NCBI GenBank assembly: GCA_015178975.1
Contig: WHVD01000013.1
Coordinates: 1,116,001-1,180,000 of the forward strand
DNA from: Hysterangium stoloniferum
Lineage: Eukaryota > Basidiomycota > Agaricomycetes > Hysterangiales > Hysterangiaceae
Length of the DNA stretch: 64,000 nt
Direction: 5' to 3'
Shown: one piece after another, positions 51-53,987 of the stretch
Layout of the letters: the number at the start of each line of letters is the position of its first letter
How positions within the stretch are numbered: position 1 is the stretch's first letter
Notes under the pieces: generated by a model
The model's input: only the letters and a program-made list of their open reading frames with translations
Database searches by the model: none
Told to the model about the DNA's origin: nothing
Program-made: the position numbers and the translations under genes

Positions 51-1390
51 ATGTCGCAAGAACAGCTCGAGGGCTTCAGTAATCCTGTAGGGAGTCATAA
101 CAATCGCAGATTTCCTTTCTAATATCCAAATAGCACGTGGAACGCTTTCGAATTTTGGTTATTGGGAATGCCAACGCTGGAAAGACAACCATTCTGGAAA
201 AGGTGTGCCATGCCCAGGGTCGCGAACCGGTCTATCTCAATGTAAGTGATCTGTGCCATCCCTAACTGCAATATCCCCAATCCGGTTTACTTAATGCTTT
301 TGTTACTTACCTGATGTAGAGCGATTCAAAGTTGGAGCCGTCGGCCTCGGTCTGTGTTGGATCGACTTGCACCTCCAGTGGTGGTGCACTCATGATAATT
401 TTTTAGCGCGGAAACCATGAGATCGAACACCAGTTCCAGTATCCAACTGCTCACGGCTTTGTATTTCATGACTCCTGTGGGTTCGAAGCGGGTGGTGCTG
501 TCGAACTGCAAAAAGTCAAGGACTTTATCGAAAACCGAGCAAAGGGTGGGCAATTAAAGGATCAATTGCATGCCATCTGGTGCGCTGAAGTTTTGTGTTT
601 TTTCCAATTTCTGACTTTTGGGGTTCAGGTGTTGCTTGCCAACTAGTAACGATAGAGGGATGACCAATGCAGAGATGAGTCTGTTTGAGAGCGGCACGGG
701 AAATGGTCAGCCAGTGTCTGCGTCATGAGCTGAGCCTACTGATTATCATCCAAGTCCCCATTATCGCCATTTTCACGAAGATGGATGCTCTGGACCAGGT
801 GGCACGCAACCAGTTAATGTTTAATGACGATGACCTTTCTTGTAAAGAAATTGAAGAACAAGTTCCCAATCTAGCAAAATCCATATTTCGAAAAAAATAT
901 CTCAAGCGACTCGAAGAAGTAAAACACAAGCCTCGTTATGTCGTGCTGCTCCGTGGTATGCTCCTTGTCGATGACATAGCAACCCGCTCAGCCATACTGC
1001 TCAGACATGAACAAAGAGGATACTAATTGTGATGAACTGATCGTGAGAACCTCACAGGCCCTTGACCGTGACACTCTGAAACTGTTCTGTCTGTCGATGT
1101 TGCGGATCGATATTGACTCTCGTATCAAACAAGTTATCAACAGGTGAGCTACCCAGTTCTCCGCCTTCAAAGCAGACGGCCAATACATGGATATCCAAGG
1201 ATAATTATACCGCAGGTGCAAGGTGAGGGAGGATATGGCAATGCAAGATGCAAGGCAGACTATTGAATTCATGGGTATCACTTTTCTCAGTTGTTCTCGG
1301 ATCGGGCACATTTTCCGAAGAACAAGCAAAATCCTTGTTCTGCAAGGTCATGTGTTGTTTTCCACACGTCTTGGTGCGAGAATGTTGTAA
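51..1390 (+). CDS. Multi-exon P-loop GTPase (G-domain protein), apparently intact
   Basis: Likely a GTP-binding protein of the G-domain family expanded in Agaricomycetes; cellular role unknown. My eight-exon model is 51-86, 134-241, 320-349, 407-579, 629-705, 755-955, 1005-1143 and 1216-1390. It totals 939 nt, giving about 312 codons ending in TAA, with all introns GT-AG and 47-78 nt. Motifs seen: the G1 P-loop GNANAGKT in exon 2 (after FRILVI), a DxxG-like G3 in FHDSCGFEAG (exon 4), and a G4-like FTKMDAL (exon 6). HAIWCCLPTSNDRG is assembled across the exon 4/5 junction and SGTGNVPIIAIF across exons 5/6, which supports those splices. The ATG at 51 gives MSQEQLEGFSNP and then the G-domain, but an earlier start beyond the window is possible. 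The last exon is the least certain: another frame at about 1325-1386 contains CCFPHV, resembling the WFPH-type end of this family, and a GT donor at 1387 overlaps the stop and leads into the splice-site train. Confidence 0.78.
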
Positions 1391-2870
1391 CTCTTGCACT
1401 TACATGTTTTTATGTTGGTAACAACAGCCCGTGAGTGGCTCACAGCTATCCTCTTATCATGTCATTCCCTGATATTTCATTGGTAGAGTGTGAGTGTCCA
1501 TACGTATGTTGACAATATCCGGAGATTATTGATTCCAGTATCTTGGCCTTTGAGTTTGTGGGTTGATCTTCCTTGTGATGTAATTGCCTCATCTAACTTA
1601 ACATCATTGCTTCTGAACAGGATGTAGGTCTACCTTGGGAAGTGTTATCATTATGTTGATCTCCACTTCTCCTTGCTCATCACAGAAAGTATGTAACACA
1701 ATTTCACTGCAGTCTGCCTTTTTCTGTTCACAATCATTGAATTATTTTATTATTATGTTTCCAGCTGGTGAGTATTTTAGCAAATATGATTATATTAGCT
1801 CAAGTTAGTTTATTATCCACTGCCCCTTTAGATTGTGAGTATGGCTTCTTCATATTTTTGTTTGGCTTCTGACATATTTGACAGGTGGTAAGCCCTTGCT
1901 GTTGTTTCAAGGCTGTATAACCTTCATCTGGTACATTGCCAATAGGATGTGAGCCTGTCTCCGCCCAGTTTTGCATATACTGGCTCATAACTGTTTCTGT
2001 AAACTACCATGTGGCAGATGGTGAGTCTTTTTGTACTGCATGTTCCTTTAGTGGCTCAATGACCTGTGGATGACTCAGGATGTAAGTATGTGCATCCAAT
2101 GCACAAATGATTGATGCACACTCATAAGAGTATGATCTGACTGGTTTTAAACTGCACAGAGAGTGAGTATGCTTATATGGTTGGTTATCTTGAAGTTAAC
2201 CTTATATGATTCTACATTCTGAAAAGAATGTAAATTCCCTCTGAGTTCTAATTACATGCTTCATTGACTCACAGCAATTTTCTCCTTGGACTTGATAGGC
2301 TGTAAGTTGGAATATTCTGTGGATTTGGGTACTAAGAAATTGTAATACTATAATTGTAATCCTCAAACAGGTTAATGTGAGTGTCTCTCCCAAACAGTTA
2401 TAGTATGCTTATTAAAAATGGGGTTTGAGATAGGCTGTAAGCACTGCCTATTGAAGGTTTGGAACCCAGTTCATGATGGGTTGGTTTCATCTTACCAACA
2501 GTCTGTATGTGTTGTCTGGTTAAATGCATTGTCAAGGTGGATAACAATGCTTATGCTCTTTGGCTATTTGGATTACCTACAGAGAGTGAGTGTATCTGAC
2601 TCTGTTGCATTCCATGGCTAAATGGGCTGTGGACAATTTAGGAGGTTAGTCATCTACTCATTGTCATGGATAGGAATGTGTTGAGTGATGGATTCATTGG
2701 ATGTAAATCAGAGTGTATGTGTTTTCCTTTTGTAACAAATTGGAGAAGGGTACTCAATGGGAGTTCTGTCTGGGATTGCAGTTGGTGAGGATTCCTTGCT
2801 CACTTGTAATCAGAATGATTATCACAACCTAAACTGATGTCTGGAACAATTGTTTGGGTAGTCATTACAG
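1387..2870 (+). other. Train of intron-like units separated by 3-nt microexon candidates (diverged part)
   Basis: After a possible 41-nt first intron (1387-1427), this stretch divides without gaps into 21 intron-like units of 50-86 nt. They are 1431-1486, 1490-1554, 1558-1620, 1624-1685, 1689-1764, 1768-1831, 1835-1884, 1888-1945, 1949-2017, 2021-2078, 2082-2159, 2163-2226, 2230-2298, 2302-2370, 2377-2433, 2437-2501, 2505-2582, 2586-2641, 2645-2711, 2715-2781 and 2785-2870. Each begins GTGAGT, GTAAGT, GTATGT or a close variant. Nineteen end in CAG or TAG; the weak ends are GAG at 1554 and AAG at 2226. The spacers are exactly 3 nt (for example CCC 1428, AGT 1487, AAA 1686, ATG 2018, AGA 2160, GAG 2642), except for 6 nt at 2371-2376. 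Unit interiors show no obvious similarity to each other, so this is not a simple minisatellite. No ordinary exon is visible in the stretch. Splicing itself is inferred. Confidence 0.6.
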
Positions 2871-4960
2871 GATGTAAGTTTTTCCTCCTTTTCTGCCCAT
2901 CACAGCTCATCTCCCTTGGCATGCTCTTCCCAGTTTGTGAGTTTCTGACTTCTTCCTCCTTGTGTGCCCCTCATAGCTCATCCCCTTGGCATCCTCTTCC
3001 AGGAAGTGAGTTTCTGACTTTCTCTTCCTTCTCTTCCTTCTCTGCCCCTCATGGCTCATCTCCCTTGGCATCCTCTTCCCAGGAAGTGAGTTTCTGACTG
3101 TTTTCTCCTTGGGCCCTCATGGCTCATCTCTATTGGCATCCTCTTCCCAGTTTGTGAGTTCCTGACTTTGTCCTTGTCTGCCCCTCACAGCTCATCTCCC
3201 TTGGCATGCTCTTCCCAGTTTGTGAGTTTCTGACTTTGTCCTCGTTATCTGCCTCTCATGGCTCATCTCCCTTGGCATGCTCTTTCCAGCGAGTGAGTTT
3301 CTGACCTTGTCCTCCTTGTCTGCCTCTTATGGCTCATCTCCCTTGGCATCCTCTTCCCAGTTTGTGAGTTTCTGACTCTGTTCTTCTTGTCTGCCCCTCA
3401 TGGTTCATCTCCCTTGGCATGCTCTTCCCAGCAAGTGAATTTCTGACTTTGTCCTCCTTGTCTGCCCTCATAGCTCATCCTCCTTCACATCCTCTTTCCA
3501 GGAAGTGAGTTTCTGACTGTCCTCCTTGTCTGCCCCACATGGTTCATCTCCCTTGGCATGCTCTTCCCAGGATGTGAGTTTCTGACTTTGTCCTCCTTGT
3601 CTCCTTATGGCTCATCTCCCTTGGCATCCTCTTCCCAGCGAGTGAGCTTCTGACTTTGTCCTCCTTGTCTACCCCACATGGCTCATCTCCCTTGGCATCC
3701 TCTTCCCAGGGTGTGAGTTTGTGACTTTATCCTCCTTGTCTCCTTATGGCTCATCTCCCTTGGCATCCTCTTCCCAGCGAGTGAGCTTCTGACTTTGTCC
3801 TCCTTGTCTACCCCTCATGGCTCATCTCCCTTGGCATCCTCTTCCCAGTTTGTGGGTTTCTGACTTTGTCTTCCTTGTCTGCCCCTCATGGCTTATCTCC
3901 CTTGGCATCCTCTTCCCAGCGAGTGAGCTTCTGACTTTGTCCTCCTTGTCTACCCCTCACGGCTCATCTCCCTTGGCATCCCCTTCCCAGTATGTGAGTT
4001 TCTGACTTTGTCCTCCTTTTCTGCCCATCATGGCTCATCTCTGTTGACATGTTCTTCCCAGCAAGTGAATTTCTGACTTTGTCCTCCTTGTCTGCCCCTC
4101 ATGGCTCATCTCCCTTGGCATCCTCTTCCCAGTTTGTGAGTTTCTGACTTTGTCCTCCTGGACTGCCCCTCATGGCTCATCTCCCTTGGCATCCTCTTCC
4201 CAGAATGTGAGTTTCTGACTTTGTCCTCCTTGTCTGCCCCTCATAGCTCATCTTGGCATGCTCTTCCCAGTTTGTGAGTTTCTGACTTTGTCCTTGTCTG
4301 CCATGGCTCATCTTCCTTGCATGCTCTTGCCAGGAAGTGAGTTTCTGACTTTGTCCTCCTTGTCTACTCCTCATGGCTCATCTCCCTTGGCATACTCTTC
4401 CCAGTTTGTGAGTTTCAGACTTTGTCCTCCTTGTCTACCCCTCATGGCTCATCTCCCTTGGTCTTCACAGCTTGTGAGTTCCTGACTTTGTCCTCCTTGT
4501 CTGCCCCTCATGGCTCATCCTTGGCATCCTCTTCCCAGGAAGTGAGTTTCAGACTTTGTCCTCCTCGTCTGTCCCTCATGGCTCATCCCCCTTGGCATCC
4601 TCTTCCCAGTGTGTGAGTTTCTGACTTTGTCCTCCTTGTCTGCCCCTCATGGCTCATCTTGGCATGCTCTTCCCAGTTTGTGAGTTTCTAACTTTGTCCT
4701 CCTTGTCCGCTCTTTGTGGCTCATCCCCTTTGGCATCCTCTTCCCAGTTTGTGAGTTTCTGACTTTGTCCTCCTTGTCTGCCCCTCATGGCTCATCTCCC
4801 TTGGCATCCTCTTCCCAGCTTGTAAGTTTCTGACTTTGTCCTCCTTGTCTGCCCCTCATGGCTCATCTCCCTTGGCATCCTCTTCCCAGTTTGTAAGTTT
4901 CTGACTTTGTCCTCCTTCTCTGCCCCTCATAGCTCATCCCCCTTGGCATCCTTTTCCCAG
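2871..4960 (+). repeat. Tandem array of 30 near-identical intron-like units (mostly 71-bp period) with variable 3-nt spacers
   Basis: Thirty units follow, 16 of them with exactly 68 nt between spacers and the rest 60-77. Each starts GTGAGT (variants GTGAAT, GTGGGT, GTGAGC, GTAAGT) and then has TTCTGACTTTGTCC, a pyrimidine-rich body, CTCATGGCTCAT and a TTCCCAG end. The 29 internal spacers start at 2934, 3003, 3083, 3151, 3219, 3290, 3361, 3432, 3502, 3571, 3639, 3710, 3778, 3849, 3920, 3991, 4062, 4133, 4204, 4271, 4334, 4405, 4471, 4539, 4610, 4677, 4748, 4819 and 4890. Ten triplets occur: TTT 11 times, GAA 5, CGA 4, CAA 2, CTT 2, and GAT, GGT, TAT, AAT and TGT once each. The spacer is the most variable part of the unit. 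CTCAT copies 30-40 nt before the AG could serve as branch sites. The array continues the phase and architecture of the diverged train to its left and stops abruptly at repeat R1. Confidence 0.85.
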
Positions 4961-7546
4961 GAGAGATGGTCTCTGCAGCGGTAGTTTCGTCTTGGCTCTG
5001 CGTCAGAAGCGTGGCGCCAGTGTCTTCACAAAATTGAAGGACTGTGTTGGGTTAAGCATCTGAGGAGCCAGGTGGAACTTTCCATCCAGAGCTGTCACAA
5101 CAGCTTTGCTTCCTTAGGCACTCTCTGGATATACAAGCGTTCATGAAGATATCCACCTGACAGAAGTCAAGAGAAAAGCTGCCTGCCCTGGTATTTAAGT
5201 CCCCAAACGTCTGTCCTAGCGGATTGGTTTCAGTACCAAGCACGTAACGCTTTGTGAGTCTCCATCGTTCATGTATAGAAAAACGTTAATCCAATAGCCT
5301 GCTCCTTAGCCTTAGGGATGTAGACGGAATCCTGGGTTGCCTGTATTAGAGGGAGATGCGCAATGTTACGATAAAACAGTAGTGAAATGAAGGATGGCCA
5401 TCTAAGATATGCACTGACTAGCAAAAGGCGCCTTCTCACCTACTTGTCAATCCAAAGATAATAAACTATTGATGGAGGAAGTTGGAGACACACCGTTTGT
5501 GACGAGTCAAGAATCACGATACGAGACGCGAAAACAGGTTGTGAGGAGACTGCATCAGCTATTCTCGAACATGCAGAGCAAAGGCCGACGCCTATTATGT
5601 AAAAGGTTCCCGCGTCAGTGAAATTGGTGGGGCGAAAACTATGTCAATGGAAAAAAAACAAAAGGGACGGAACAGCGAAACAGGGTAATGTAGAAGACGT
5701 AGATAATACACAATGAGAGCTGAATACATGATATACTATGAACAACACAACACATCTATAAGTATGTCGTACTACTGAGTTGCTACCATCTACTTGCTCT
5801 GTCAGACGGAGAGCGGTCTTCTCAACAGCACCGATTATTTCAGCACAAGGCGACTACTCTTCGGGTCAACGGATTAGATAGTGATTTCACCATAACAGGA
5901 CCGAGAGTGTCAGGATTGTATGGTCATTTAACCTTTGGAAACCAAAAGAAGCATTATCCTTGCTTGGTGCCATCTCAGCTCTTTCTGGCCTAAAATAGGC
6001 GTGTTCTTAAATTCCATTCGAAGGCTTAGCCAATCAATTTCCAGTGATTGCCGCTACAATGAAATTCACCGGACTGCTGATCCGATCAATACCAGATTAA
6101 ATTGTCAATGTTCTGTTTTCGCAAGTATTTAGCAAAGGCGGTGTAAAATTTCTTGTACTAATATATGAAATAAATTTGAAAAATTAAATTAACTTTGTTG
6201 TTTTGCAGTGCCGGTGGAAATGTCTCAGTCCTTCTGCCGCACTCAACAACCTGAACGTGTTAAATATTTCGGAGTCTCGCAGCTTCTATGGCTGGCAGAC
6301 TCCAACAATAGGAAATAATATCCTTTGCACGCCGCTCACATTACAGCGTGCGCGGGACCCACAACGCTCTAGGGAGTCTACATAATGGGTGTAGACATTC
6401 CCAAATCCCTGATGTTAATCACCAAGTATTATCTGATGCAGGTTCTTTTCTGAAACCACCTGTTCTCGTAGCACTATGGAGCGGTATTTCCCATGAAAAG
6501 ACCGACATCCACGTGGTTTCTCAGGTCCACGCTTCAACTTGAAGTTATTTCCTTCTTTTCTGACGTCATTAGTACATGCCTGATGGTCTATCTTATATCT
6601 ACCTTTGGTCTGGCTTGCTTTGTGCTCACACCCATGTGACAGAAGGTCCTTGTCTCATAGTCATTGGCTCTAGCATCGCCACAATTCAGGATACGGAATG
6701 GCATTACTATTTTTCTGTGGCGATATCTTGATAATTTTAGAAAAATAGATAACAGCCGGGGCAAAAATCGACATGTGCTTCCTACAGGTCATGAAGGAGA
6801 GGGGCTGTCAAAGAAAAAAATCTATTTAAAAGGGTGCATCTTTGTGTTGTAAGACTAGTATCTGCTGTGGGCGCAGACAGACACTAGAATGAGTGATGGG
6901 GAACTAACCACTACTTTATTCAAAATCCACATATACAGATTATATACTAGTGGACAACAATGGGATATGGACAACAATAAGGTCAAATATTACTAAATCA
7001 CAATGTAGGGAGCCTAATGACGAAGGCGATAATTTACTTGACGTCTGGACCAACGGTGGGCCCATTTGATACTACATGTCAACACCACACCCAATGCTGG
7101 TTTTCCCTGTCTTAATTCACTCTCACATTGTACAAATACATTTATTGGGAACTTGCAAAGACCACAGTAGATATTAGAATATAACTTGGCTTGTATCTAC
7201 GAGTGAACTACTGGGGATTATATATATCTATGGGGAGAAGGTTCTGGAAGGGATGACAGAGATATTACTAAAGCTATCTTAAGTATGTTCCAAGATATTC
7301 TATAATATTCTAGGAATGTCAGGTTCATTACCAACAACATTATCATTGTAAATTCAAATGCACTTCAATTATTGTTTACAGCTGTTCCAAGTACCTAAGG
7401 TATAGTTCAAAATTTAAAAAAAATCCCACCACAGACAAATTGTGCCATATCTCCAGAATGAGTGGCAATTAGCACATAATAACATGATATGTGTATGATA
7501 TTGTATGGATCTATATATGTATGTATATTTTTGGCCTTATGAGAGG
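4961..7546 (+). repeat. Repeat R1, copy 1 (unclassified, non-coding as far as seen)
   Basis: Matches 37,925-40,617 in the same orientation and the reverse complement of about 25,770-32,900 outside the Harbinger insertion. It begins sharply at 4961, right after the last CAG of the splice-site array, so this copy lacks the central R1 part seen at 33.1-37.9 kb. The right end passes into the left arm of the inverted-repeat element IR at about 7,470 and is cut by an LTR at 7547. Short ORFs inside recur in the other copies only because the repeat recurs; none resembles a known protein. The site used by the Harbinger insertions in copies 2 and 4 is empty here (GTAGCACTATGGAGCGG at about 6471). R1 superfamily unknown. 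Confidence 0.8.
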
Positions 7547-8397: not shown

Positions 8398-11184
8398 ACC
8401 TCATAGCATGAGTGTCGATTGTAGTCATATTGGTGGTCGGGGCAAATGTTTCGGAGTAATCTAGCCCATGCTTCTGATGCTGTCCATTAGTGACAAGTCA
8501 TGCATGGAGTTTAATCTTCTTTCCATCAGGTCCATACATGGTTGCCAATACAAAGTGACATGGAATGATGTTAACATGAAGAGCTGGGTTTACAATTTTC
8601 CATGCTCCAAGCTTCTTGAGCTGTCCAATTTCATAATTGATAGCATCTTGTCATTCCAATGCATCTGGTCCACTGAGTGCTTCCTTCTGGTTCCACAGTT
8701 GCTAATGCCCAGTGGACATTTGATTCCATTGAGTCCTGTTCTTCAATAGTTCTAATTGCTGCATGTTCTCCTTCATTAAGGCTTTGATAATATCCTACAG
8801 GTGGTCGGACTCGGGTTGTTCTCAGTGCAGCTAGTTGTGGAAGTGGCTGTGATGGTCTAGGAGGTGTTACTGGTGGAGCAGGGAGTGGAGCTTGTATAGG
8901 TGGTGCAATGGGCTGGACGACCTGTGGTGTGCTTACTGGTACTGACTCCCCCACATCCAGTTTGTCGGCCTGTAATGTGAGAATCATTGGTGCAAATGTT
9001 ACATTGCATTCTATACCTACACACCTCTTTTCTGGCCAATAAATATGGCACCCTTTGCTTTCTTCATCTATTCCAACAAATATGGCTTCATTTTCTCGAG
9101 CTTCTAGCTTTCCTCCAGCAGTGGAGTGAACATACACTTTTCCTCCAAACTTGTGTGCTTGTGCAAGGTTGGGTTTGGATTTGTGGACAAGGGAATAGGG
9201 GGTTTCTCCTGGAATAGCACGGGATGGTAGACGGTTCTTCAACCATGTCACATAGTTAATGGTTTCTGGCCATAGGAACATCTGCATGTTCTTTCCTAAT
9301 GACATTGCTCTTGCATGTTCCACCAAAGTGCAGTTGAGTCTTTCTGCTACTCCATTTTGCTGTGGTGAGTTGTGGATGGTGAGCTGTCATTTGATTCCAT
9401 TATCCTTTAGGTAGTTATTGAATTCTTCATTCAAATATTCACCACCTCTGTCAGACCTCAATTTCTGTACTGTTATTCCATTGTGATGGCATGCTGTTAC
9501 GACCGTGTCGCAACCCTATCGGTCCTGAGGTTATCGCCACTTGTCAACGACAAGTCACCCTCTCGGAAACCATCGGCCCCGAAGCTGATGAATGTTTTCG
9601 CGAAGATCAAACTCCGTTTACGCCCACGTCAAAACAACTCATATTGTCTGGTCAAACTTTGATACGTCCCCTTTATTATGTTGATCCGTTCAATCTTATG
9701 TTTCGCATATGTCTATCTATATGTGTAGTCCTTGAACTATTTCCTTTTTATCGTAATCCTGCTCTCGGTTATCATCGGCCTCCGAACTAATCATAAACTT
9801 CCCGTTCCTAGTCAAGCTTATTGTTAATACCGTGTTCCGCCCTTCTCCCCATTAGTATTTTCCAGACGCCTGTTACTTGTATATGAACCCGCTGTAGTTG
9901 TAGTTACTAAGCAATCAGAATATCGACTCAGAATACCCTCATACACCTGTATCAGTCTCATACTCAGAGTTCCCCCATCCGCCTTCGCGTGTGCTCGCCC
10001 ACTTCCGGCCCCGACCCCTTGGCCCGACGCTCGACTTGTCCTTCGATTCCGATCGGTATCATGCTGAAAGGTACTCGCTAGGATTAGTCTTCACCCGCCC
10101 GAAATTTAAGGACATCCTACGGATATTTGCGAGGGTGCAGCACATAAGCTGAAGCCAAGTCCTTCCGATCGGTCCCTGTCGGCCACCGACATTAGTCAGT
10201 TTCCAGTTCTTAACACATGCTATCTCTGCCACATAGTGTTTGAAAGCCTTAAGTGCATCAGATATGAGTTGGAGAAATTGAACTTGGGTTTCCTGGCTAT
10301 AATCATCTGTGAGCTAATGTAATAGAGACTTCCACCAATGCTAGTAGTTTTCACAGGTCCCCATAGATCAGTATGCACTAATTCCATATATATTCAAGCT
10401 CTGTTCCTGGATTCTTCTGGGAATGGTTGTCGGACTGCCTTAGCCTTTCTGCAGGCATCACAGAACTCAGAAGTGGAGGTGGAGTCTAGCTCCACACCTT
10501 CAACAATTCCGTTCTTTACTGCATCCATAACTGCGGGTTGTGCTACATGTCCTAGAATTCAATGAAGTGCATGCACAGAAAATTTCTCCTATGCTGCAAG
10601 TGGTTGGTGGGAAAATGGAGTGGGGATAGTGTATAAACCCATTGGCTAGTGGAATTTCCACTATGGTCTTCCACTGTGGTGCAGGAGAAATGATCCTACA
10701 CAGATTTTCCTCAAATTGGAATGTAAATCCTGCTGAAGCAATGCGATTTGTGGAGATAAGGGTTAGAGACATTTTCAGAGTATACAGCACATTTTTCAGC
10801 ATTACTACTGTAGTCTTGCTTCCTAAGGGTAGATTAATCTTGATATCTCCTCTTCCAATAGCACTGATTGTTGTTCCATTAGTGGTGTAAACCTCTTGTG
10901 CAGGGATATTTGAGAAGGTAATAAACTTTGTTCGGTCTGGACCGAAGTGTGATGTTGCACCAGATTCTATGATTGCACTTTCCTTGTTCTTTGGCATAGT
11001 TATGATTGCTGTGGGAATAAATGCAAAGTTATCTTGGGGTGTTGGAGCAGATGCAGTACTTGCAGATTGCTTCTTTGAGCTCTGCCTCCTTGATTATTGT
11101 GTCCTGGATGCTGGAGTGCCTGTCCCTCCTTTCCACCTCCTGGCCGCCAACAATCTGATTTGTAGTGGCCTTTATGATGACACA
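8398..11184 (-). mobile_element. Ty1/copia fossil, minus strand (protease, integrase, start of RT)
   Basis: Reading leftward on the minus strand: an aspartic-protease-like region (IIESGATSHF, about 10,990-10,500), a GAG-pre-integrase/integrase region (to 10,216 and about 9,490-8,640, with WLKNRLPS and GGKVYVHS-like integrase motifs and a proline-rich linker), then the beginning of the RT (to 8,398). The same family recurs at 20,426-21,185 and at 59,659-64,000. A solitary LTR-A sits inside, and the gag end is lost where truncated LTR-B begins at about 11,185. Broken in several places; no flanking LTR pair identified. Confidence 0.8.
9495..10215 (-). mobile_element. Solitary LTR-A (721 bp) nested in copia fossil
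   Basis: TGTTACGACC...TTCTTAACA, with target duplication CATGC at 9490-9494 and 10216-10220. The uninterrupted target GGCATGCTATCTCTGCC is present at about 62,587 in another copia copy, which confirms the insertion. It carries the shared LTR hairpin in minus orientation. Same length as the copy at 13,127. Confidence 0.9.
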
Positions 11185-28592: not shown

Positions 28593-29775
28593 TCAAAATA
28601 GCTTGTTGTCATGAATGGCAATGTCAGGGGTGACAAATCGGGTATGGAGAACAGGAGAAGGGGAGTGACGAGGATAATGATGCAGTGGGGAGCGGATCGT
28701 TGGAACATGGGCATTGGTCATATTGAACTGATGGTGTGAGGGTTGTGGATAGTGGGGCTGGTTACGCAACATCTCAAACATCTGTAAATCCCTCTCTGCC
28801 ATATCTACACGTCTAGTCTCATGATCCACATCCTGCTGTAACTGCCTAATCTGGCCCTCTGCCTCACGAAGTTGAGTCGTTAGAGAATGTAATTGAAAAT
28901 TTTCAAATCTACGAGCCTGACAGTTGTCTTCTCGTGTTGCCTGAACCTCTGGATCAAAGACACGTGCTATGTTGGCCAATGTACCACGAAGCTGTGAGGA
29001 TGTTGTGCGTAATCCACATCCCTCTGATTGTGGTTCATGTTTGAGTTGATGGGCAATGTAGCTCTTCGTTTTGTGTTTAATTGGTGAACATGCAGGTGAA
29101 TGGTCAGATGAGATGACAATCACATCCTCTTCCATCTCTTCATCACATACAACATCAGATGCGACTCAGTTGTTGATGTAATGCTCAATCTGATGAGCAC
29201 GCTCTATCTCCCATGGACATTCTGAATTTCCAGTTGGTTTCGTTACACGTACCAACTAGAAGTTGTATGATATTAGGTGTGGTTGTGGGAGTTTGTTAAT
29301 AACATACCTTTTTGAAATGTTTCTCCACCACATCAGCCCCTCTAATTGGCCGTCCATTTGAAACAGCCAAGTCTCAAACCTATCATAAACTAATGCCCAT
29401 TCCTTAGGTCCAGCTGGCAAGATCTCTTCTGTGAATTCCATCAGTGCCTCGAGATCAGCCTGACTCCACTTTTTTGCCCCCAGTGCTCTACCCTGCCTTA
29501 GAGATAAACCTTCATCCCCCACATCATCCTCATAGTCATCATCAAAAGTATCCTGATTTCTCTTTGATACAGGCTCATTTCCATGTCCTCCACGTCCCCT
29601 ATGACCTGCAGGGGCAGTACGCTTCCTTGGTCTGGTAGTCACGTTGTGTTTTGCTCTCATAGAGATAGCTGCGATTGTTGGGTCAGGCAGGTCATTCTCG
29701 TCAGATGCACCTTGTGGAAAAATGAACGTTTTGTTGGTGGGGTGGGGCTTAGGCTTTGTTGGTATTGAATGATCA
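28593..29775 (-). pseudogene. Harbinger-associated Myb/SANT-like DNA-binding protein
   Basis: Second gene of the Harbinger element. In this superfamily a Myb-like protein binds the ends and helps the transposase enter the nucleus. Minus strand: a low-complexity basic N-terminus (PRKRTAPAGHRGRGG, an NLS-like stretch), an acidic patch, then a SANT-like domain (KKWSQADLEALMEFTEEILP, AGPKEWALVYDRFETW), ISKR at an intron (GTATGT near 29,310 to CTTCTAG near 29,262), LVRVTKPTGNSECPWEIERAHQ, and a C-terminal coiled-coil-like region (REAEGQIRQLQQDVDHETR). One in-frame TGA lies in VASD-proximal sequence at about 29,165, where a CGA codon would fit, consistent with CpG decay. The upstream start is uncertain; in-frame protein-like sequence extends beyond the Met at 29,660. 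Confidence 0.78.
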
Positions 29776-42332: not shown

Positions 42333-44131
42333 TGTAATGTATTAGCCTTATTATAATATTATTTTCTGGAAAAAGGAGTCCAATGCTCTATCAAAGTGTG
42401 CAAATACTTAATTCACTACAAGGTAAAATAATTTAAGTATTTGATATTAATCAGTGGCAGCCTAAATAGACTTAGAACCCCTGAAGTCAAGAGTTTACTT
42501 GAATATATGCACCCTACTTCGCAAAGAAGGTTTTGAGAGCTGCTTGTGCAAGCTTGTTCTTTTTCTGTGATAACAACTACTAAAATAAGAATAACAATTT
42601 ACTGATTCCAAAGCTAGATTTAACTTCAATGCTAGCTAGTTTATATATATTTTATACTATTTGTCAAACAGTAAAAATATTTATAAACGGGTCAAAAGAT
42701 TAGATATAGAATAAAACACTATTTGGCTAATATATGCTTTATTTACACTAACCTACAAGGTCTACTGTGATACTAACTTATCAGGATCTTAATGTAGTCT
42801 TAGGATCTTGCAAGGATATTCTCAGTATTTATTTATGTGAATATGCTTTACTGATTCACAATAAATGAGCAAGGGAACAGGGATTATTTGTAATATAATA
42901 ATCAGTCAAATTACTCAACAAGAGGTGACTGAAGTTTTAGATTACAAATAACAAGAAATGTAACAAGGATTATTTGCAATGTAATAATCAGTCAAATTAC
43001 TCAACAAGAGGTGACTGAAGTCTTAAACTACAAATAACAAGATATGTAACAAGCAGTCAAATTACTCAACAAGAGGTGACTGTGGTACAAAGGATTAATG
43101 CCAAATTACTCAACAAGAGGTGGCAGGGAATCCTGATTGGTAGAATTACTGTCAAATTACTCAACAAGAGGTGACAGGGAATCCTGATTGGTAGAATTAC
43201 TGTCAAATTACTCAACAAGAGGTGACAGGGAATCCTAGGTGCCAGATGCTCAACTAAGAGGTGGCAATATACTGCTAGCTGCAGTGACACACAGATGTGG
43301 TGTAAATAGGTTGATAAAATAGGTTGTATTTCATGGCTGGAGCAGAGCTCCTTATATACACTGAGATGTGAGACATTTAGAGACATATTGAACTTTATTT
43401 CTATCCTATTTTAGCTATTTTACTTGGAATGTTTTAGACATTTCTGCCATTCTCTACTGTTGCATATATGATGACATAATGTATGACATAATATTCCCAG
43501 ATGACATAACATATGACTTAATATTCCCAAATGACATAATGTATGACATAATATTCCCGCGCTAGTGCGCGTGTGACACCTGTCGCGCCTTGTGACTGTC
43601 GCGCGCCTTTTGTGACTGTCGCGCGCCCTTGTGACTGTCGCGCGCTCTTGTGACTGTCACTCGTTGTGACGATGGTCACTCGTCGTGACGGCCGGTCACT
43701 TTGTTGTGACGTCCGGTCACTTGTTGTGACGTCCGGTCACTTGTTGTGACGTCCGGTCACTTGTTGTGACGTCCGGTCACTTGTTGTGACGACCGGTCAC
43801 TTGTTGTGACGACCGGTCACTTGTTGTGACGACCGGTCACTTGTTGTGACGACCGGTCACTTGTTGTGACGAGTATTCCCGCGCATTATATAATAAGCGC
43901 TAGGTGGCCGGTTTGAAGATATATAGTTAAAAAAGAATAAAAAGTAGAAATTTCGTAGCTCCCTCAATTTATAAGATAAAAATGCAAAATAAATTGCATA
44001 AATTCAATATAAATTAAGAGAATATTGTACAATTTTTATGATCGCGATATAAGTACATTTAGAAGCTTTTGTTAAGAATTTCGTTTTGGGGAAATTGTAA
44101 AAAATAGAAAAACCTTTTAAAATACATGACA
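42333..44131. mobile_element. Complete solitary LTR-B (1799 bp)
   Basis: TGTAATGTATTAG...TACATGACA with target duplication ATTAG (42328-42332, 44132-44136). Two internal tandem-repeat zones: ACTCAACAAGAGGTG units at about 42,900-43,260 and GTGAC/GTCAC palindromes at 43,560-43,875. The end sequence resembles the complement of LTR-D, so B and D are probably related. Confidence 0.85.
43560..43875. repeat. 20-bp palindromic tandem array inside LTR-B
   Basis: About nine exact 20-bp units from 43,706 share GTGAC-GNCCG-GTCAC followed by TTGTT. They are preceded by degenerate 17-21-bp units rich in TGTCGCGCGC. Each unit is a small palindrome of GTGAC half-sites. The zone is very CpG-rich compared with its surroundings. 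Confidence 0.9.
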
Positions 44132-53028: not shown

Positions 53029-53987
53029 TGTAAAGATCCGTTCCTGGAAACTCTTTGGAGTATTTCCTGGATATTATCTCTTGGTCCCAACCATCTTCCG
53101 GACCAGTATCAAGATCCGGAATCCACTGGAACCTGATCCTCATCCCTTCAAGGTGACTTCCAGTCAGACTCCCGGTCAGACTCCCAGTCAGACTCCCAGT
53201 CAGACTTCTGGTCAGACTCCCAGTCAGACTCCCGGTCAGACTCCCAGTCAGACTCCCGGTCAGACTCCCAGTCTGACTCCCGGTCAGACTCCCAGTCAGA
53301 CTCCCAGTCAGACTCCCAGTCAGACTCCCAGTCAGACTCCCAGTCAGACACCCGGTCAGACACCCATCTCTGATCCAACTTTCCACCCCAAGTCTCTGAT
53401 CCAACTTTCTGACATCCACCTCAAAATCCGACCCGACTTCCAACTATGGAACATTTGTAGTTTCCATATTTCCGAACCTCATCCTTGTTCCATATTTAGT
53501 AACTGACAGGTTAACAGTTATTCATTCGCTTGTTTATTGTTCTTGTTGTATTCCCGTTTCGGAATCTTCATCCTAATCTGTCTTATTATACTTCTAGATT
53601 TGTAGTACAATTACTGGAACATCTATATAGTCTTCCATAGTCATGTACTTACTCTTTAGTTTTAATCTCAAATTAGTTTGTATCTCTTCTGTCTTTCTGT
53701 ATGCTCAATCTTCGGAACTCTCTGGACTCCAGATATCTGGAACTTCCGAGTATCCGTAAACATTCCGACATATATTCATCCTCTGAAATATGGACACCTG
53801 AGTGAGTGCACGAGGGCACAGCACATAAGCTGAAGCCAAGTCCATCTGTACTCTGGTAATATTCCGATACTCCCGTTACTAATCCCCAGAAACTCCCAGA
53901 CTAATTCTCCGAAACTCCAAGGACATATTTCTGGGAAGTATCCAGAATATCCATTGGAAATTCTGCCCCAAGATCCAGAACTTAACA
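53029..53987 (-). mobile_element. Solitary LTR-E (959 bp) in Tc1 transposase gene
   Basis: TGTAAAGATCC...AACTTAACA with target duplication GGTGC (53024-53028, 53988-53992). The split Tc1 copy at 41,640-41,660 shows the empty site. Contains a 12-bp minisatellite, and the shared hairpin (minus) at about 53,817-53,841. Confidence 0.92.
53161..53375. repeat. 12-bp minisatellite in LTR-E
   Basis: About 18 units of CAGACTCCC(A/G)GT with few variants. It produces long repetitive open frames on both strands, which are artefacts of the repeat. Confidence 0.95.

Follow-up and report, generated by a model that had tools for sequence, protein, structure and literature searches.

Can a gene end in a long series of exons that each consist of a single codon? 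The question is raised by a 64,000-nucleotide (nt) stretch of contig WHVD01000013.1 from the fungus Hysterangium stoloniferum, called the window here, in which a P-loop GTPase-like gene on the forward strand is followed by an unbroken train of predicted introns set 3 nt apart almost throughout. This region is probably the 3' portion of the GTPase-like gene, with about 51 phase-0 introns lying between one-codon exons. The analysis covers one allele and one 64-kb window at the level of sequence only, and from it we infer that the train is spliced, translated and functional. The initial annotation of this DNA had proposed that one-codon exons make up this part of a gene. That proposal is supported in part, by the 3-nt spacing between unrelated introns, by hypervariable spacers and by an open frame leading from the upstream gene across the spacers to a stop, although the exact junction between gene and train allows more than one model.

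A dynamic-programming parse of positions 1387 to 4960 recovered the train that had been delimited by eye. In its raw form the parse gives 51 introns and 50 spacers in a chain unbroken from end to end. Its minimum intron length of 45 nt fused the first two units, and splitting them by hand at 1427/CCC/1431 restores the missing joint, for a final count of 52 GT-AG units (about 51 had been claimed) and 51 spacers. Fifty of the spacers are 3 nt long and one is 6 nt, as had been described, and the introns measure 41-86 nt overall. Joined in register, the spacers form 52 codons without a stop, which likewise agrees with the earlier description, and all train introns are in phase 0 in the two gene models that read through. 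The train divides into a left part of dissimilar introns and a right part that Tandem Repeats Finder (TRF) reports as a tandem repeat with a period of about 71 nt (Table 1). A blastn search finds no copy of the array in the window outside 1387-4960, and Rfam matches no known structured RNA in the window at its gathering thresholds. The array was also considered as an unspliced coding repeat, and this candidate was rejected; eight stop-to-stop open reading frames (ORFs) of at least 60 amino acids (aa) overlap 2800-5000, the longest of them 92 aa.

The introns of the left part are alike only in their splice signals and in a size of 50-86 nt, a claim that withstood alignment. Their sizes match, and their mutual similarity stands at shuffle level, with one of 210 pairwise local alignments above the 99.5% shuffle quantile. 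When the same introns are scored against the consensus of the right part, two of the 21 rise above the 99% null quantile of 10, with scores of 11 and 12, and a few left introns may thus be distantly related to the right ones. GT and AG are present in all 21 by construction of the parse, while a G at position +5 is found in 20 and a pyrimidine preceding the AG in 19. A CTNAY-type branch motif occurs in 11 introns where 6.6 are expected (P = 0.037); two other forms of the motif give P values of 0.067 and 0.26, and the enrichment depends on how the motif is defined. Intron lengths are distributed 7/7/7 over the three remainders modulo three, so length is not tied to frame. Splice signals and a 3-nt exon that are retained among otherwise unrelated introns point to selection for splicing.

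The spacing is specific to three nucleotides. Under a relaxed motif the left part contains 22 AG-N3-GT joints, and each other spacing (0, 1, 2 and 4-12 nt) occurs zero to five times; 5000 shuffles of the left part average 1.9 AG-N3-GT joints and never hold more than 8. Under a strict motif the left part has a longest chain of 9. The corresponding figure is 2 on the forward strand once the array is excised and also 2 on the reverse strand, and none of 500 dinucleotide shuffles exceeds 2. With the relaxed motif, the longest chains reach 3 both downstream of 4965 and on the reverse strand, and 1 upstream of 1380. A chance origin of the left-part chain is excluded. Measured against a shuffled-sequence null, as had been proposed beforehand, AG-N3-GT chains are rare, and they are rare in the rest of the window as well.

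The same joints bear on a different use of the splice signals. The train could be a ladder, formed by splice sites that are recursive or compete with one another within one long intron or a 3' untranslated region, with the 3-nt spacers as untranslated by-products, and the initial annotation had named the stepwise removal of a long intron by such a ladder as its alternative. The hallmark of recursive splicing is a zero-length exon at an AG|GT joint; the whole stretch holds three such joints against 52 of the AG-N3-GT form of which the train is built. Stepwise splicing would leave 3-nt remainders in the RNA, and untranslated spacers would not be expected to be the most variable columns of the alignment described below, so that the differences among spacers go unexplained. 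In favour of the ladder, no finding made here demonstrates translation, and the frame of the GTPase gene preferred by codon usage runs into a stop unless the first intron of the train is spliced out. This alternative is less likely than a gene with one-codon exons, and we consider it distinctly unlikely.

The right part supplies evidence of another kind. Its 29 similar units (u23-u51) were aligned in 71 columns, each unit with its preceding triplet. The three spacer positions rank first, second and third in diversity among the 71 columns (0.687, 0.660 and 0.488), the intron columns having a mean of 0.098 and a maximum of 0.474, and such a ranking would arise about once in 57,000 times if columns were exchangeable. 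As a block, the spacer columns average 0.61, about six times the intron mean, against at most 0.22 in 64 three-column windows of the intron. In seven pairs of units with a difference of about 1.5% between their introns, the codons differ by 48%; because u49 is present in five of them, these pairs are not independent. The spacers are subject to a regime of their own. They comprise ten distinct codons that specify ten different amino acids (TTT 11 times, GAA five, CGA four, CAA and CTT twice each, and GAT, GGT, TAT, AAT and TGT once each). All 29 end in A or T, in contrast to the GTPase body, where G or C occupies the third position in 130 of 254 codons.

This variability speaks against an ordinary intron-derived minisatellite, in which splice motifs would be carried along without any splicing function. 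The period of 71 suits a minisatellite, and the joint motif does occur in other tandem repeats: a loose three-joint pattern picked out 47 stretches of viral contigs, of which eight hold chains of at least five joints, and all eight were inspected. The unit itself has no match in the viral contigs. All eight loci look like tandem repeats and serve as controls, not as relatives. Ordinary tandem repeats thus carry chains of 5-12 joints, and the joint chain alone is not decisive for the repetitive right part. The spacers differ in kind, however. They are invariant in five control loci (TGA in L020 and L037, TTG in L032, CTG in L028 and TTG in L036), nearly invariant in two (TCT in 9 of 10 at L005 and CAG in 4 of 5 at L007) and mixed in one (L017, with GTG, GAG, AAG, GAG and GAG), whereas those of the train are hypervariable. 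The caveat of minisatellite expansion, raised by the initial annotation, is thereby answered in part: expansion can explain the similarity of the right introns; it cannot explain spacers that vary, and the left part, which is not repetitive, still holds the splice signals and the spacing. A minisatellite devoid of splicing function is very improbable. One control array is regular in itself: from about position 7440 of L020, AG-TGA-GT recurs 12 times at a constant 69-nt period with an invariant TGA spacer, and the same array is present on L037.

Codons that are translated should also be free of stops. Position-wise shuffling predicts 2.85 stops in the 52 codons, where none is seen (permutation P = 0.030). 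By part, 2.72 stops are expected in the right 29 codons (P = 0.026); for the left 23 codons the figure is 0.43 (P = 0.62). These tests are moderate, and the absence of stops is supporting evidence only. Simulations of how often stops and synonymous pairs are both absent, which hardly ever happens in them, were set aside: some of the actual codons share a common descent, which makes such simulations an unfair null.

The train can also be joined to the gene upstream of it. Under two gene models, the frame from ATG 51 is readable across 60 introns to TAG 4984. Model 1 combines acceptor 1215 with donor 1387 and encodes 348 aa; model 2 pairs acceptor 1199 with donor 1374, and donor 1368 also keeps its frame. 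Only acceptor 1199 puts donors 1368 and 1374 in frame, and only acceptor 1215 does so for donor 1387. The small exon just upstream of the train would accordingly measure 7 nt (1216-1222) in model 1 and 23 nt (1200-1222) in model 2. All upstream intron boundaries were set by eye from GT-AG and the open frame. By codon usage, model 2 has the preferred frame in the last exon before the train, at 7.85 bits compared with −3.3 and −3.7 for the other two. In the modelled protein, the N-terminus is followed by a P-loop GTPase-like domain. In the joined protein, all Pfam matches to GTPase families lie below the curated cut-offs (G-alpha, E = 0.00026; GTP_EFTU, E = 0.00031), and the best match to a solved structure has an E value of 0.026. 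No second copy of the GTPase-like gene is evident in the window by tblastn, the best other match having an E value of 6.1.

Several results weigh against a gene with one-codon exons. At the junction, three of the six combinations of acceptor and donor read through and three stop. Donors 1374 and 1368, the only entry for the frame that codon usage favours, fit the donor consensus poorly in our judgement, and this frame, left unspliced, ends at TAA 1419-1421, the stop on which the ladder of splice sites draws. The shifted registers of the joined spacers had been said to stop within a few codons; both do stop early, but one of them holds just a single stop in 50 codons. Resampling by position gives a P value of 0.059 for the lack of stops in the right part, and a neutral walk starting from TTT yields no stop in 23-39% of trials. 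An amphipathic alternation of hydrophobic and polar residues in the predicted tail is not significant (P = 0.35). Finally, Mantel tests detect no relation between codon similarity and intron similarity among the right units, either for the preceding codon (r = −0.05, P = 0.78) or for the following one (r = 0.05, P = 0.19). The right introns also lack spatial structure (r = 0.06, P = 0.26). Simple local duplication predicts neither of these absences.

Introns that resemble one another without regard to position, and without overall linkage to their codons, would fit an invasion or replacement by introner-like elements. The codons, being an ancient coding sequence or one-codon train, would then be old and diverse, and the right introns, as copies of a single intron that spread of late by a route such as reverse splicing, young and similar. 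Fungal introners are reported to lack target-site duplications and are interpreted as products of reverse splicing (PMC9860276). Introners occupy unrelated insertion positions, however, whereas the sites of the train lie exactly 3 nt apart for 50 of 51 spacers, a result that random insertion cannot yield. Codons and donors also travel together in places: all three units with a GTGAGC donor carry CGA (the fourth CGA has GTGAGT), both GTGAAT units carry CAA, and a duplication of two units is visible in u32-u33 and u34-u35. In addition, the uniform A or T in the third position of the right codons is unlike the GTPase body, and the unit has no copy elsewhere in the window. Column by column, linkage with the preceding codon falls below P = 0.05, uncorrected, in five of 37 columns (5, 6, 39, 55 and 58), which is a weak signal; columns 5 and 6 sit in the donor, and 39, 55 and 58 lie far from it. 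Linkage with the following codon reaches that level in none of the 37 columns. An introner-like origin of the right introns is unlikely, though less so than any other alternative weighed here.

Spacers that vary independently of their units overall could also be left by a small mobile element in tandem, its copies joined through random 3-nt coupling bases of the kind known in general from joined transposon ends. By eye the unit has no inverted ends, no dedicated search for them having been run. The spacers are far from random in their excess of TTT, in their third base and in their freedom from stops, and the splice signals of the left part would find no explanation in such an element. This origin is hardly credible.

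For a gene with one-codon exons, the following mechanism can be proposed. Splicing would proceed by intron definition and in order, because an acceptor and the donor that follows it only 3 nt away could hardly be occupied at the same time; each removal would add one codon to the upstream exon and present the next donor. All units being in phase 0, any donor joined to any later acceptor would stay in frame and free of stops, and skipping would merely shorten the tail. The train may have grown by tandem duplication of a unit made of an intron and a codon, and the exact 3-nt exon would most simply be inherited through duplication of such units. Exchange among units would homogenise the right-hand introns, and selection on the protein would preserve or create differences among codons. 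There is a weak basis for supposing that exchange spreads intron sequence across the array while the codons resist it. The codons may be actively diversified or merely protected from homogenisation. We suggest, more tentatively than the gene structure itself, that the tail evolves by the addition of single residues: the intron would be an interchangeable, homogenised spacer and the lone coding triplet the diversified part, giving a tail for recognition or interaction that could be tuned residue by residue and in which skipping would always remain in frame.

A comparison with known systems, as far as the excerpts of the papers cited describe them, places the train near several of them. Schistosome micro-exon genes have 10-20 exons, mostly of 15 bp, between introns that range from 100 to nearly 5000 bp; their smallest exon is 3 bp according to the abstract and 6 bp according to the text, and alternative splicing and duplication are considered there as ways of varying the protein (PMC10526429). 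The structural mark of a micro-exon gene, a long row of very short symmetric exons, is present in the train in the form of predicted exons, and in both systems the runs of very short exons are mostly multiples of three. Unlike the schistosome genes, the train is fungal and has some 50 consecutive exons, all but one a single codon, between introns of 41-86 nt. Aphid bicycle genes have about 17 exons on average, the megacycle gene has more than 100 microexons, and nearly all are in phase 2 (PMC9168663). They share with the train long runs of small exons almost wholly in one phase, whereas the phase here is 0 and the organism and protein are others. The exons of bicycle and megacycle genes are also longer than one codon.

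Inclusion of exons this small is within reach of the spliceosome. Human RPS24 contains three consecutive microexons of 3, 18 and 22 bp (PMC12686416), and Fusarium CYP621A has one exon of 1 nt (PMC12940212), so that exons of 3 nt and even of 1 nt can be included, the latter in a fungus. Unlike the train, neither gene has a run of one-codon exons as presented in these excerpts. In the WD40 repeats of Podospora HNWD genes, concerted evolution homogenises the repeats while a few hypervariable codons are under diversifying selection (PMC12222747); there the homogenised part is the coding repeat, whereas here it is the intron and the codon is the variable coding part. Introner-like elements and stwintrons likewise give many near-identical introns in fungi (PMC9860276), although introners enter many genes and stwintrons are nested, and among the matches listed neither forms a head-to-tail train with fixed 3-nt exons. 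No train of one-codon exons appears among the matches listed on tiny exons and microexons in the open-licence literature. Tiny exons and micro-exon genes are already known; the combination of about 50 one-codon exons with homogenised introns is found in none of the systems compared, as far as they are described in the excerpts.

If RNA confirms the predicted structure, the spliceosome accurately handles about 50 consecutive 3-nt exons, which would bear on intron definition and on ordered splicing where exon definition has no room. The locus would also be an evolutionary system that homogenises introns rather than exons and concentrates protein diversity in single-codon exons. Such genes would easily be missed by standard annotation and read mapping, and more of them may exist. 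The coordinates of the predicted gene and train are collected in Table 1.

Table 1. Predicted features of the GTPase-like gene and the train (positions in the window).
Feature	Position	Strand	Description	Basis
P-loop GTPase-like gene body	51..1386	+	Begins at ATG 51	Open frame after intron removal
Walker A motif	164-187	+	G-N-A-N-A-G-K-T	Translated frame from ATG 51
Upstream introns	87-133, 242-319, 350-406, 580-628, 706-754, 956-1004	+		GT-AG, open frame
Upstream introns near the 3' end	1144-1199 or 1144-1215, then 1223-1290	+		GT-AG, open frame
First train intron	1374..1427	+	Donor 1374 (GTGCGA, 54 nt) or 1387 (GTAACT, 41 nt)	
Left part	1428..2873	+	21 introns (1431-2870) of 50-86 nt without mutual similarity, with the 3-nt exons (one of 6 nt) between and flanking them	Parse, spacing, splice signals, branch-point-like motifs
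Sole 6-nt exon	2371..2376	+	GTTAAT	Parse
Right part	2874..4960	+	30 introns (60-77 nt), all but the first closely similar, with hypervariable 3-nt exons between them	TRF, parse, alignment
Putative terminal exon	4961..4984	+	Keeps the register of the train and ends in TAG	Parse, gene model

Elsewhere in the window, a 231-aa ORF at 8631-9326 on the reverse strand is presumably part of a Copia-type retroelement polyprotein. Two further tandem repeats are present, one of 20 bp in 10.9 copies at 43656-43872 and one of 12 bp in 17.7 copies at 53155-53366, with the unit GACTCCCAGTCA. Finally, an ORF of 180 aa at 28593-29135 on the reverse strand includes, by eye, a possible coiled-coil-like stretch.

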